DNA of 34,946 nt from an uncultured Roseburia sp. (GTDB taxonomy: Bacteria > Bacillota > Clostridia > Lachnospirales > Lachnospiraceae), in NCBI GenBank assembly GCA_947246475.1, contig CAMXSH010000024.1, forward strand, positions 1-34,946. The letters run 5' to 3'. Of this stretch, positions 26,510 through 34,150 are shown piece after piece. Below the pieces are notes generated by a model that searched no databases, had not been told where the DNA came from, and saw nothing but the letters and a program-made list of their open reading frames with translations. Numbering within the stretch: the first letter of the stretch is position 1; every line of letters begins with the position of its first letter. Both the position numbers and the translations under genes were made by a program.

Positions 26510-29479
26510 TTATGGTGATGCCGCCGATGATTCCAGCGGTACAAGTTCTACTTTAATCTCCGATATGATAAGATTTGAAATTTTAACACCATACAATGGC
26601 TTTAATGTTATGCGGTTGCATTCCCTGTCCTTGGCAATTAACTCAACTGTTCCTGTAAACGATTTGTCTGCGTTCACCGTCGGGTTGAGGAAGACAGAGT
26701 TATTTTGAACAAAGTCTCCTGAAGTTTCTAGACCCTGTGGAGTCGTCCAGATCCTAAAGTCATTTGATCCCCAGGAAGTTCCTGAGACTGTTACCTTCAA
26801 CTTCTGTCCAGGACTAACCGTTACAGGAATTGGGAAATACATAAATGTTGAAGCACCAGAATCCGTTTGTGTGTCATTGACTCTTACGGTGTCACTATCC
26901 AGGTCATAGGAACCGCATTTGCTGTCTATCACTACCTCAGACAAAGAAACTTTCTTCTCTGGACTCTCTGTCGGTGTTGGTGTCGGTTCCAGTTCTGCGG
27001 CAGAAGTAATTCTCACCTGCCCCGCCTGTTTCCATGAAGCGGAAAGCAGATTCAGGTGCATAGCAGGCCGGACACCGCCTCCTTCATTGACCGCGATAAA
27101 TCCTGAGCAATCCACAACACCTTCACTTCCGGTATATACTGCATTAAATGAGAAGCTTCCCAGTGACCTCTGCCACCACCAGCCGTTTCCGGCGTCGTCT
27201 GCCCATGCGCCTTTGGCACCAGCATACGCAGTATTTTTCGCCTGTCTTGTCTTGGAATTCATCTCATGATACATCGCAAATCCATAGTTCTTATTGCGCA
27301 CCTCTTCCGCAGACAGCAAATATAGTTTATCTGTCGTATCTGCTCCGTTTGCCGTTCCATACTGCGGATTATTTTCCGTCGAAACGGTAGTTGACAAAAT
27401 AGCATTTTGCTCTTCCTCAATGAAGGCAGTTGAATAGAAATCATTATTCAGCCATTGACGGATACTGCTGCCTTCCCAGGATATTTCACTGCTGTTCTGA
27501 TTATGGAATGGCTGGGTATCCAGATTCTGGTCTGCCACGATAAGTGCATCGTTTTCTTCCACTGACAATACACGCCACTTAATCGGCTCTTTCTTGTAAT
27601 ATTTTCCGCCTGCATACATCATGCTGGTTCCATCCGAATCCTTGTATTCCGTATTATCTAGCGGACTCTGAGGAGGCTGTTTGGGCTCATAGAGACTCTG
27701 GTAATAAGATCCAAAAGTGATACAATCCCATACAACATCGTCTCCCTCTGCACCCGGACTGGTTATTCCCAAAGGACCTGGTTCCCTTGTCACGATCGGT
27801 TTTGGTGTCGCAGTCGCGGTTGGCGTTGGTTTTGCAGTTGGTGTTGGATTTAAATCTTCTGGTTTTGGATCTTCTTTATCACTGAAGATCAAAGATTTTA
27901 TTGTAATCTTGATGGTCTTTCCCGCAGCCAGTTCATTCGGATTAAAAATCTGGAAGCCACGGATAACTCCACCTTTACATTCATTTGTCACCTTAAAGAT
28001 AAGCGTCTTTTCCGTCTTTGACTCTACTACCTGTTTCTCCCAGTTCGGATGTTTACCCGCATTTGTATTTGTCACTCCCACTACATCTGTATCATATAGT
28101 GCATGACCAAGATCTCCGCCCTCACTTGTATAGGTCAGGACAGCAGATTTATAATCCCCTTTGGTAAGATCCGGCAAAAAGAAGTTAAGCGCCGCAAACT
28201 GTTTGACGAAAGTTACTGTGACAGAACCATCCGGATTTTTGACGATGGTAGCACCAGATTCACTTTCGTTATGAATCGCTCCATCTTTTGTCAATTCAAA
28301 ATGGAACGCGGGTGCTGCTGTCACCCCAGGATTATCTGGTTTTTGTGATGGAGCAGCTGAAGATCCCCCTGGTTTTGTCGTTGCTGTCGCACCTGGCTTT
28401 GATGACGAACTTGGCCCTGATGATGGACCTGGCTCTGATGACGAACCTGGCTCTGTCGGCGATGGCGTCACTATCGGTTTCAGATCTTCAGGAGACGGAT
28501 TCTCTTTGTCACAGAAGATCAGCGATTTAATTGTAATAGTAATCGTTTTGCCTTCTTCCATCGGATTTGGATTGAAGATCTGGAATCCGCGGATACACCC
28601 TCCCTCAAAATCTTTTGTAACTTTTAGTATAAGTGTGTTCTCTGCTTTTGATTCTTTGATCTGGCTGCCCCAGTCCGGGTGTTTGCCGGCATTGGAATCT
28701 GCAGGTCCTACCATCTTTGTATCGTACAGTGCATGACCAAGATCTCCGCCTTCACTCGTATAGGTAACAACGACAGATTTATAATTGCTGTAATAATTCT
28801 GTGCATTATCCGGCAGGAAGAAATCAAGTGCTGCATACTGCTCTGAAAAGGTTACCGTGATAGAACCGTCTGGATTGTTAACAATATTGGCGCCAGCTGC
28901 GGATTCATTGTAGTAAGCCCCCTCTGCCGTCAGATCGATGTGCTGCACCGACGGCGCCGGCACATCAGGTCTATCGTACTTAGGAGTCGAAACCGGTGGT
29001 CCTGGCGGCAGGGAAGACGTCTGGGCTGGTCCCTGTGGATCAGCAGGATTGTCAGACGGCGGCTGGGGTGCAGGATCATTATTTACAGACGGATCATCTG
29101 TCACTTTTTTATTGTCCACTTTATTCACAACCTGAATCTTACAGGTCGCTTTTTTCTTCGTACCTTTTACCTTTGCCGTGATCGTTGTCTTTCCAGTCTT
29201 CAGCGCCTTGACTACGCCTTTTTTAGAGACTTTGGCGATCTTCTTTTTACTGCTTTTCCAGACAACTTTTTTCTGTGTCGTCTTTTTTGGCTTAAAGGAA
29301 GCCTTAAGTTTCAAACTCTTTCCTTTTTGCAGTTTATATGTTGAATGGTTTAGCACTATCTTTTTGAGTTTTACATTCTTCTTTCGGGCAAAACTGACTA
29401 TTGTACCCATAGGAGAAATAAGCATAAGCACCATCAACATACTCATGAACCATGCTATTTGTTTTTTCCCATATTTCAT
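26510..29479 (-). CDS. Large modular secreted/surface protein: BIG2, two repeated beta modules, DUF6273, C-terminal beta module
   Basis: About 989 residues. In order (numbering from ATG 29494): signal peptide (6-36); a Lys-rich Ig-like BIG2 domain (about 42-122); a Pro/Asp linker; beta module A (about 186-335); a Ser/Pro/Gly linker; beta module B (about 398-545), a close duplicate of A (shared YTSEGGDLGHALYDT and IRGFQIFNPN); a Thr/Pro linker; a DUF6273 domain (about 585-818: ITFGSYYQS, PIKWRVLSVEEND, SSIRQWLNNDFY, GGGVRPAMHLNL); a TPTPTESP linker; and a last beta-sandwich (about 848-985). The two repeats and the last module look like carbohydrate-binding folds, which is inference. No LPXTG motif or membrane tail is seen. 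Start ATG 29479 has GGAGAG 8 bases upstream and begins the signal peptide; ATG 29494 is the alternative. It is divergent from the GH98 gene. Confidence 0.85.
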   Translation of the reverse strand: MKYGKKQIAWFMSMLMVLMLISPMGTIVSFARKKNVKLKKIVLNHSTYKLQKGKSLKLKASFKPKKTTQKKVVWKSSKKKIAKVSKKGVVKALKTGKTTITAKVKGTKKKATCKIQVVNKVDNKKVTDDPSVNNDPAPQPPSDNPADPQGPAQTSSLPPGPPVSTPKYDRPDVPAPSVQHIDLTAEGAYYNESAAGANIVNNPDGSITVTFSEQYAALDFFLPDNAQNYYSNYKSVVVTYTSEGGDLGHALYDTKMVGPADSNAGKHPDWGSQIKESKAENTLILKVTKDFEGGCIRGFQIFNPNPMEEGKTITITIKSLIFCDKENPSPEDLKPIVTPSPTEPGSSSEPGPSSGPSSSSKPGATATTKPGGSSAAPSQKPDNPGVTAAPAFHFELTKDGAIHNESESGATIVKNPDGSVTVTFVKQFAALNFFLPDLTKGDYKSAVLTYTSEGGDLGHALYDTDVVGVTNTNAGKHPNWEKQVVESKTEKTLIFKVTNECKGGVIRGFQIFNPNELAAGKTIKITIKSLIFSDKEDPKPEDLNPTPTAKPTPTATATPKPIVTREPGPLGITSPGAEGDDVVWDCITFGSYYQSLYEPKQPPQSPLDNTEYKDSDGTSMMYAGGKYYKKEPIKWRVLSVEENDALIVADQNLDTQPFHNQNSSEISWEGSSIRQWLNNDFYSTAFIEEEQNAILSTTVSTENNPQYGTANGADTTDKLYLLSAEEVRNKNYGFAMYHEMNSKTRQAKNTAYAGAKGAWADDAGNGWWWQRSLGSFSFNAVYTGSEGVVDCSGFIAVNEGGGVRPAMHLNLLSASWKQAGQVRITSAAELEPTPTPTESPEKKVSLSEVVIDSKCGSYDLDSDTVRVNDTQTDSGASTFMYFPIPVTVSPGQKLKVTVSGTSWGSNDFRIWTTPQGLETSGDFVQNNSVFLNPTVNADKSFTGTVELIAKDRECNRITLKPLYGVKISNLIISEIKVELVPLESSAASP

Positions 29480-33442: not shown

Positions 33443-33658
33443 TTACATATGCCTCATGGTCTGGGAAAACCAGTACATTAACAGGCTGACTCCCCCAATA
33501 AACACAAAAGCAAGAATGCCAGAAATAATAAGCTGATTCCGGTATCTTCTTCTTTTCTCTCGCTCTTCTTTCGGACACTTCAAGAACAGGACCAGGTCAA
33601 AAATGAACCAGATCAGTGACACCAAAGGCAGGCCAAAAATTATGATCAATAATTCCAT
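33443..33658 (-). CDS. 71-residue two-TM membrane protein, unknown
   Basis: Start ATG 33658 (MELLIIIFGLPLVSLIWFIF) has GGAGG 7 bases upstream. Two TM helices (about 2-22 and 44-64) flank a very basic cytoplasmic loop (KCPKEEREKRRRYRNQ), with the end WFSQTMRHM. The same frame is open further upstream to 33760, but that part lies in the folded leader and has no ribosome site. First gene of the PstS-like operon. No family recognised. Confidence 0.65.
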   Translation of the reverse strand: MELLIIIFGLPLVSLIWFIFDLVLFLKCPKEEREKRRRYRNQLIISGILAFVFIGGVSLLMYWFSQTMRHM

Positions 33659-33664
33659 ATAAAT

Positions 33665-33812
33665 CCTCCATTCCGAAGCGCAGCGGAGGAAGTACGAGCA
33701 AAAAGCAGCAAAGCTGTTTTTGCTCTGTACATCAATACTATTTGTGGCGCTTCGGCACAAATAGTGGTGTGAAAAATAAGCTATCGAGCTTATTTTTCAC
33801 ACTAGTTCCTCC
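33665..33812 (-). promoter_or_regulatory. Folded leader with SD-sequestering alternative stem and loop-loop complementarity (candidate riboswitch-like element)
   Basis: On the minus-strand RNA, three hairpins (33767-33802, 16-bp perfect stem; 33737-33765, 10-bp stem; 33693-33730, about 8 + 4 + 4 bp) are enclosed by an outer stem GGAGGAA/TTCCTCC (33806-33812 with 33686-33692). The same TTCCTCC strand can instead pair with the ribosome binding site at 33665-33670 (6 bp). The 9-nt loop of the middle hairpin (33747-33755) is perfectly complementary to 33674-33682, which would be the loop of that sequestering hairpin. It lies directly before the ATG of the 71-residue gene. A repetitive DNA element is an alternative reading. 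Confidence 0.6.
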
Positions 33813-33825
33813 TAATCAATGGTTT

Positions 33826-34098
33826 TTAAGTTAGCTCGACGGCGCCAGGATCAGATATACCATAACCCATGTCTTTCTCTATAAGCATTTTTTTCATGCT
33901 ATGAGTAAGCATATAATTCAGCCAGATAATTAACAATGTGCTGAATATCGTAAACCAGTTGATATGGAATGAACTAATCCCTGCACAAATGTTAAAAACC
34001 AACAAAATACAAAATCCCCCACTTAGGTTCTGGCTTATCCTTTTTTCCATGTGTTCCATCTCCTTCTTCAACATTAAGTATATCGAATTTTCTTCCAT
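33826..34098 (-). CDS. Small two-TM membrane protein, unknown
   Basis: Up to 90 residues. Two hydrophobic helices (about GGFCILLVFNICAGIS and WFTIFSTLLIIWLNYML) follow a charged N-terminus (KKEMEHMEKR). The ATG at 34098 has no clear ribosome site, whereas AAGGAG lies 9 bases before the ATG at 34050, so the protein may be 74 residues. It ends SDPGAVELT. The stop lies inside a short repeat shared with 34135-34150. Family not recognised; it resembles the small membrane partners found next to ECF sigma or kinase genes, but neither is present here. Confidence 0.5.
   Translation of the reverse strand: MEENSIYLMLKKEMEHMEKRISQNLSGGFCILLVFNICAGISSFHINWFTIFSTLLIIWLNYMLTHSMKKMLIEKDMGYGISDPGAVELT
33832..33847. 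repeat. 16-bp direct repeat, copy 1
   Basis: TAGCTCGACGGCGCCA; 15 of 16 bases match 34135-34150. It encodes the last codons of the small membrane protein. Confidence 0.5.
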
Positions 34099-34134: not shown

Positions 34135-34150
34135 TAGCTCGACGGTGCCA
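34135..34150. repeat. 16-bp direct repeat, copy 2
   Basis: TAGCTCGACGGTGCCA; together with 33832-33847 it brackets the small membrane-protein gene. Confidence 0.5.

Follow-up and report, generated by a model that had tools for sequence, protein, structure and literature searches.

Small interspersed repeats are usually thought to fill neutral space, and REP sequences, with their RAYT (Y1) transposases, are dispersed non-autonomous hairpin repeats. For the BOX, RUP and SPRITE repeats of Streptococcus pneumoniae, the passages of the source describe a view of the authors that these are parasitic and likely to affect co-transcribed genes (PMC3049150). The Rickettsia palindromic elements (RPEs) are about 150 bp long and, according to passages of a MITE review, are inserted in ORFs, in frame with a conserved peptide (PMC10969869). 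Enterobacterial RU-1, RU-2 and RU-3 are described in their abstract as small mobile sequences of 103-168 bp with ORFs, in both intergenic and intragenic locations (PMC2759123).

In this study, the window is the whole stretch of DNA analysed, 34,946 nt from an uncultured Roseburia sp. (GCA_947246475.1, contig CAMXSH010000024.1). Upstream of a gene of 71 residues, its minus strand carries a structure that is one copy of a dispersed family of about 140 nt and not an operon-specific leader (Table 1). The element belongs to the small interspersed palindromic repeats, from which it differs by its fixed position between Shine-Dalgarno sequence (SD) and start codon, the SD that it carries and a covarying loop-loop contact. 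Like BOX, RUP and SPRITE, it is short, multi-copy and highly folded, whereas insertion specificity between SD and start codon, a carried SD and a covarying loop-loop contact are not described in the passages of PMC3049150. Like the RPEs, it is palindromic, dispersed in unrelated genes and tolerated by the host gene, but, compared with the RPE passages of PMC10969869, it is located ahead of the start codon, and its peptide frame is not conserved. The TAACTGA repeats of Beggiatoaceae also lie within several nucleotides upstream of the start codons of functionally unrelated genes, but in the passages of PMC4679880 they are heptamer direct repeats and not a folded element of about 140 nt. RU-1, RU-2 and RU-3 are of a similar size class, and start-codon targeting is not mentioned in the abstract of PMC2759123. 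Unlike REP/RAYT systems, the genome with the most matches has no Y1 enzyme, and the position is fixed at gene starts. No description of the element was found in the literature searched, which comprised parts of papers available outside subscription. The element takes up the short interval from SD to start codon in front of genes that include ruvA, xylB and yebC, where it seems to survive by bringing a ribosome-binding site of its own, which adjoins a covarying RNA fold.

Table 1. Features of the element and its host gene in the window, with the evidence for each.
Feature	Positions	Strand	Evidence
Whole putative mobile element, TAGTGTG...CGGAATGGAGGA	33664..33804	(-)	Match to covariance model R1; empty site in G023; ends +/- a few bases
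Original SD of the host gene (AGGAGG), now 5' of the element	33808..33813	(-)	Same ATTGATTAGGAGGAACT in the element-free G023 ortholog
Hairpin 1, perfect 16-bp stem	33767..33802	(-)	MFE; double changes at 5/16 pairs; 86.6% of cells paired
Hairpin 2, 10-bp stem ACTATTTGTG/CACAAATAGT	33737..33765	(-)	MFE; double changes at 3/10 pairs; 97.3% paired
Loop 2, CCGAAGCGC, 5' strand of the loop-loop helix	33747..33755	(-)	Double changes at 4/9 pairs; 85.8% paired; 0/2000 permutations
Hairpin 3, bulged A	33692..33730	(-)	MFE; double changes at 9/12 counted pairs; 88.1% paired
Pyrimidine-rich anti-SD, TTCCTCC	33685..33691	(-)	Above shuffles in 49 copies; covariation not convincing
3' strand of the loop-loop helix, GCGCTTCGG	33673..33681	(-)	Permutation test and alignment covariation
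SD at the 3' end of the element, GGAGG	33665..33669	(-)	Start codon 3-8 nt past GGAG in 92/93 standard copies
Possible leader ORF, GTG start, 20 aa	33738..33800	(-)	Frame varies across the family
Host gene, 71 residues, ATG 33656-33658	33446..33658	(-)	No Pfam match
Second, decayed copy before an ORF of ~990 aa	29487..29602	(-)	R1, 23.9 bits, E 7.6e-5 over the window

Fold and covariation

The minimum free energy (MFE) of positions 33664-33804 was -63.4, with a shuffled mean of -31.8 (z -9.1), and that of the wider stretch 33650-33825 was -68.7, with a shuffled mean of -37.0 (z -8.3); neither value was reached in 200 shuffles. The preliminary description of this locus had named several complementarities, all of which exist on the minus strand, and two of its coordinate sets were shifted by one base. 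The outer 7-bp stem pairs GGAGGAA at 33806-33812 with TTCCTCC at 33685-33691 (previously 33686-33692), and the hairpin-2 loop CCGAAGCGC is the exact complement, over 9 bp, of GCGCTTCGG at 33673-33681 (previously 33674-33682). The three hairpins, the first with its perfect 16-bp stem, were confirmed by fold and covariation, and the claim that the structure exceeds chance was borne out by the shuffled energies (0/200) and by the permuted loop partners (0/2000). No named riboswitch class had been recognised, and we found none either: at the gathering score, no Rfam family matched the window leader (the sole match in the window was a tRNA) or 8 further loci, and the strongest match below threshold was sRNA_1300 with 20.1 bits (E 0.016; cutoff 48.8). 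A covariance model (R1) was built from 26 copies, and it matched the window copy, which is one of those 26 sequences, over model positions 1-141 with 135.2 bits (E 6.7e-35).

In 49 non-redundant copies, the loop match scored 21.84 within the copy; permuted partners averaged 15.49 (sd 0.61), and none of 2000 permutations reached the observed score. The own loop partner scored above average in 45 of the 49 copies, and part of the other four were copies in which the region was missed in parsing. The pair types across copies included CCGAAGCGC/GCGCTTCGG, CCGAGAACGT/ACGTTCTCGG and CCGCAGGCGC/GCGTCTGCGG. The mismatches in this helix were 16 G-T and 5 A-C, leaning to RNA, and it was the sole part of the structure to do so. 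The distinct stems of hairpins 1-3 were almost only Watson-Crick, with 10 G-T and 19 A-C mismatches; there is no excess of G-T over A-C in them, and these stems could therefore be kept at the DNA level.

The alignment of the 26 sequences was tested with the structure taken from the window's own fold, a test in which related sequences can exceed the shuffles without structure: 23 pairs of the whole structure changed on both sides (shuffled 16.6; 0/500), as did 141 cells (shuffled mean 53.2; 0/500; slid partners gave at most 30), and further pair types were modestly above the shuffles (54 vs 50.1; reached by 33/500). The fold is under selection, its parts unequally so, and the loop-loop helix is backed by the separate permutation test. 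For the 3' strand of this helix, weaker covariation was seen with a second possible partner, its 5' neighbour (0/5000), and in part of the copies this second pairing is a small hairpin before the SD. The loop-loop helix and the small hairpin may compete.

It had further been claimed that the downstream strand of the outer stem can instead pair with the ribosome-binding site of the 71-residue gene, the two pairings excluding each other. The complementarity is present, and a pyrimidine-rich anti-SD is enriched: at least 4 contiguous pairs with the 3' SD were found in 38/49 copies, against 46% of shuffles, and for the 5' SD the figures were 32/49 copies and 57% of shuffles. The switch itself, however, finds no good support. 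With wide windows, permuted partners reached the observed scores of the two SD pairings in 263 and 1108 of 2000 runs, and with narrow windows in 3422 and 2474 of 5000 runs, respectively; in the alignment, double changes were seen at 2/2 pairs of the SD stem in helix 5 (67% paired) and at 0/5 in helix 6 (61%), this covariation test being weak because SD sequences vary little and the region aligns poorly. The covariation of these pairings is thus not convincing, and the 5' SD of the outer stem is already there in an element-free ortholog from a related genome (G023).

Dispersal and position before start codons

The genome of the window (G000) holds three full copies (in the window, at C94 and at C34) and a shortened one at C21, and the R1 search added copies shortened at the 5' end at C49 and C67. 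These last two (L352:501-619 at C49 and L353:115-240 at C67) are without hairpin 1 and retain hairpins 2 and 3, the loop match and the SD before the start codon. Forms lacking hairpin 1 suggest that it is a separable module. In the decayed copy of the window, the loop match GAGGCGTC/GACGCTTC and GAATGGAG survive, and the ORF behind it likely starts not at its first ATG but at the ATG 29477-29479.

The hairpin-1 pattern occurred in 26 of 39 genomes of the genus, with a maximum of 37 matches in G024, and the reversed pattern, used as a control, occurred in 1 genome. Of 82 distinct hairpin-1 places (loci L017-L102), 61 were flanked on one side by the hairpin-2 motif; the other 21, none of them at sequence ends, had no such motif, and hairpin-1 counts therefore overstate full elements. 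Hairpin 1 may travel alone, or it may remain from decayed copies. At the family level, R1 matched 52 of 299 genomes, from 51 of 298 genera, with up to 10 candidates scored per genome. In the class-wide sample, 6 of 341 genomes matched, 3 of the own family (the own genome included) and 3 of other families, the latter weakly (E 1e-4 to 9e-4). A pattern scan of named genomes gave at least 120 stretches, and the titles among the matches listed were mainly Lachnospiraceae, Roseburia, Eisenbergiella, Acetatifactor and other Clostridia, with some MAGs labelled Bacteroides or Bacillus. The hairpin pattern had 0 matches in viral contigs, and no match to the element was found in plasmids. Three records deposited as "Bacteriophage sp." bear a copy (L349, L350 and L351; MT836788, MT838414 and MT837007), and these are probably bacterial DNA, because one copy precedes what by eye is an apparent enolase.

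From the retrieved loci, 148 distinct copies were taken, 93 of them with the standard 3' end. ATG, GTG or TTG stood 3-8 nt past the 3' SD in 92 of these 93, at exactly 6 nt in 64, while shuffled letters gave a mean of 28 and a maximum of 39 in 200 runs; with ATG only, the count was 89 (shuffled mean 14.7). An SD-like motif lay directly 5' of the element in 86 of the 93 copies (shuffled mean 46), and in 21 of the 93 when tested 30 nt further up. An ORF of at least 60 codons opened from the start codon after the 3' SD in 81 copies; the remaining standard copies comprised 10 with shorter ORFs, 1 without a start in range and 1 with too little sequence. Among the copies with room, 118 of 143 had an ORF of at least 100 codons on the 3' side, and 9 of 136 had one on the reversed 5' side. 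Copies are oriented with the gene that follows and have an SD-like motif on their 5' side and a start codon on their 3' side, and the genes concerned are unrelated. By Pfam, the genes downstream belong to ABC transporter, DUF3892, sodium-solute symporter, RuvA, FGGY kinase and lyase families, and from the translated sequences we take some of the products to be YebC, MurG, ArgH and XylB.

The reading of the window as a PstS-like operon preceded by a ligand- or state-controlled switch is not upheld, because homologous copies precede unrelated genes. Copies scattered away from the operon had been named beforehand as speaking against the switch, and this is what we found; the other adverse outcome named, stems and loop-loop pairing without covariation, did not occur, as both covary. 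A leader specific to the PstS-like operon is ruled out by the dispersed copies in the own genome, the genus and the family, and the genes downstream, which are unrelated, lack the consistent function expected behind a riboswitch. The repetitive palindromic element, which the preliminary description had given as its main alternative, is the better description, but in this case the loop-loop contact is conserved and the position, fixed between SD and start codon, is unusual.

As a sign of spread, an identical 128-nt core was shared by 7 of the 148 copies, with different sequences after the core. Back-to-back pairs of copies were seen at L112:3333-3644 and L070:388-670, an arrangement that would arise if one copy had entered the SD of its neighbour, and GGAATGG was present in the 5' flank of 12 of the 148 copies; both observations would fit an element whose own SD can serve as a target.

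Empty sites and flanks

In G023, an ortholog of the 71-residue gene with 89% identity lacks the element. The empty site there reads GGAGGAACT directly followed by TATATG, i.e. ATTGATTAGGAGGAACT directly followed by TATATGGAATTATTG, and its counterpart in the window reads ATTGATTAGGAGGAACT(AGTGTG...GGAATGGAGGATT)TATATGGAATTATTG, with the element in parentheses. From this comparison, therefore, the host SD stays 5', the element brings a second SD and the bases adjoining the ATG are the host's. G023 also differs further upstream, where about 200 nt (about 33820-34021), including most of an ORF of 90 aa, have no counterpart. G023 carries two tandem paralogs of the 71-residue gene (L224 and L229 on C149), with one match in the window genome.

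At xylB (30 loci listed), the element was present in G003, G022 and G036 and absent in G000, G015, G027 and others. Hairpin 1 differs in G003, which suggests that the xylB insertions could be separate events. In G035, a shortened element lies at xylB (L285) between perfect 13-nt direct repeats, GGAATGGAGGCAG, directly before the start. At yebC and ruvA, only G019 had the element, among 30 loci listed and among 24 loci listed (23 genomes), respectively. The gene at L096 was also tried as a source of empty sites, but with only 4 of 39 genomes matched it was not useful.

The SD and spacer were compared across the two flanks of the 93 standard copies. The similarity was 5.80, with 4.75 (sd 0.12) for permuted flanks (0/5000), and with permutation within genomes it was 5.97 vs 5.48 (11/5000; 57 copies, 17 genomes). 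A flank match score of at least 8 was obtained in 23 of the 93 copies, while 3.7 were expected from cross pairs. CAMECH (8 copies) showed the strongest similarity, whereas G024 (7) and G019 (4) showed none. A target-site duplication is uncertain as judged from these flanks, and the exact ends of the element are therefore uncertain by a few bases. The ends, TAGTGTG...GGAATGGAG, are not an inverted pair by eye. When examined for the features of a MITE-type element, the family proved to be short, multi-copy and dispersed, with empty sites in relatives.

Proposed mechanism and competing explanations

We believe, with moderate confidence, that the structure is a non-autonomous, MITE-like element of about 140 nt, which inserts between SD and start codon and which, through its RNA fold and the SD that it carries, would let translation of the host gene continue. 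It is supported directly by the dispersal before unrelated genes, the empty sites, the position, the SD at the 3' end, and the covarying three hairpins and loop-loop helix. An insertion between SD and start codon would normally silence a gene. The element may escape this in two ways, as its 3' end sets CGGAATGGAG(G) at a short distance from the host ATG and its transcript would fold on itself. Loop 2 would capture the strand directly upstream of the 3' SD and so keep the insert compact, and this loop-loop clamp probably sets the exposure of the new SD. Judging from the position, translation of the host gene would go on, at a level that is altered and depends on the fold. Because both SDs are possible partners of the pyrimidine-rich strand, it would probably dampen translation to some extent or couple it to the upstream SD. 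Ligand control is possible; nothing points to a ligand, because the gene functions differ and the presence at orthologous genes is patchy.

If confirmed, the family would offer many natural before/after experiments on the effects of a structured 5' UTR on translation, as well as a new insertion specificity. It would also call for caution in the annotation of gene starts, as copies that are open in frame can pass as N-terminal extensions. The case is also a warning that what resembles a riboswitch leader in a single stretch of DNA may prove to be a mobile repeat.

The first alternative is a dispersed regulatory RNA regulon, in which the loop-loop helix, the small hairpin before the SD and the anti-SD pairing alternate on a global signal such as temperature, translation state or a metabolite. 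The position fixed at the ribosome-binding site, the enrichment of the anti-SD over shuffles, and the covariation of the loop-loop helix, whose 3' strand covaries more weakly with the alternative 5' partner as well, would all fit such a regulon. However, the downstream genes are unrelated, the presence at orthologous genes is patchy, the SD pairings are without convincing covariation and no Rfam family was matched at the gathering score, and we regard this explanation as rather unlikely. A bolder form of the mobile-element reading is that the anti-SD strand recognises SDs as landing sites, guided by RNA or a single strand, so that the element homes into ribosome-binding sites across the genome, and that the interrupted site is then exchanged for a new SD gated by the kissing-loop RNA, which would make the element a self-spreading translational switch; we consider this decidedly doubtful.

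A single-strand DNA element like REP or IS200/IS605, moved by a Y1/RAYT enzyme with the anti-SD guiding it to SD-like targets, is in our opinion very unlikely. Such an element would be consistent with the hairpin near the left end, the almost purely Watson-Crick stems, and the SD-like sequence on both flanks together with an internal complement to the SD. However, Y1 transposases (PF01797) were found in 10 of the 39 genomes of the genus and in none of G000, G024 (37 hairpin-1 matches), G003 and G019. Reverse transcriptase (PF00078) was found in 17 of the 39 genomes and in neither G000 nor G024. G024, the genome with the most hairpin-1 matches, is estimated to be 98% complete, and both enzymes were rejected as the mover with their absence from it. 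No transposase or master element that would move the family came out of the search for PF01797 and PF00078.

The chance is slightly slimmer that the element is a leader-peptide attenuator, in which translation of its GTG-started ORF controls the downstream gene. The SD-like motif lies 5' of the GTG in 86 of the 93 standard copies, and of the 129 copies for which a start was assigned, 50 read on beyond the element, but the other 79 stop inside it, and frame and length vary, a 1-nt change in hairpin 1 giving MKNKLDSLFF or MKNHTDMLIFH. A conserved leader peptide is ruled out, as the frame is not conserved. Slimmest is the chance that the element, as a palindrome of the Rickettsia RPE kind, codes for protein and is selected for extending the host protein in frame at its N terminus. 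Of the 129 copies, 30 stay open in frame 0 and 20 in one of the other two frames, but 79 stop inside the element, the SD and start codon of the gene come after it, no conserved in-frame peptide of the Rickettsia type was found, and two example peptides had no match in Pfam or NCBIfam.

Another dispersed palindrome, with the full form TAGCTCGACGGCGCCGTCGAGCTA, was observed as half copies on the minus strand of the window at 33832-33843 and 34135-34146, and it also occurs elsewhere in the own genome, e.g. at L013 and L014.
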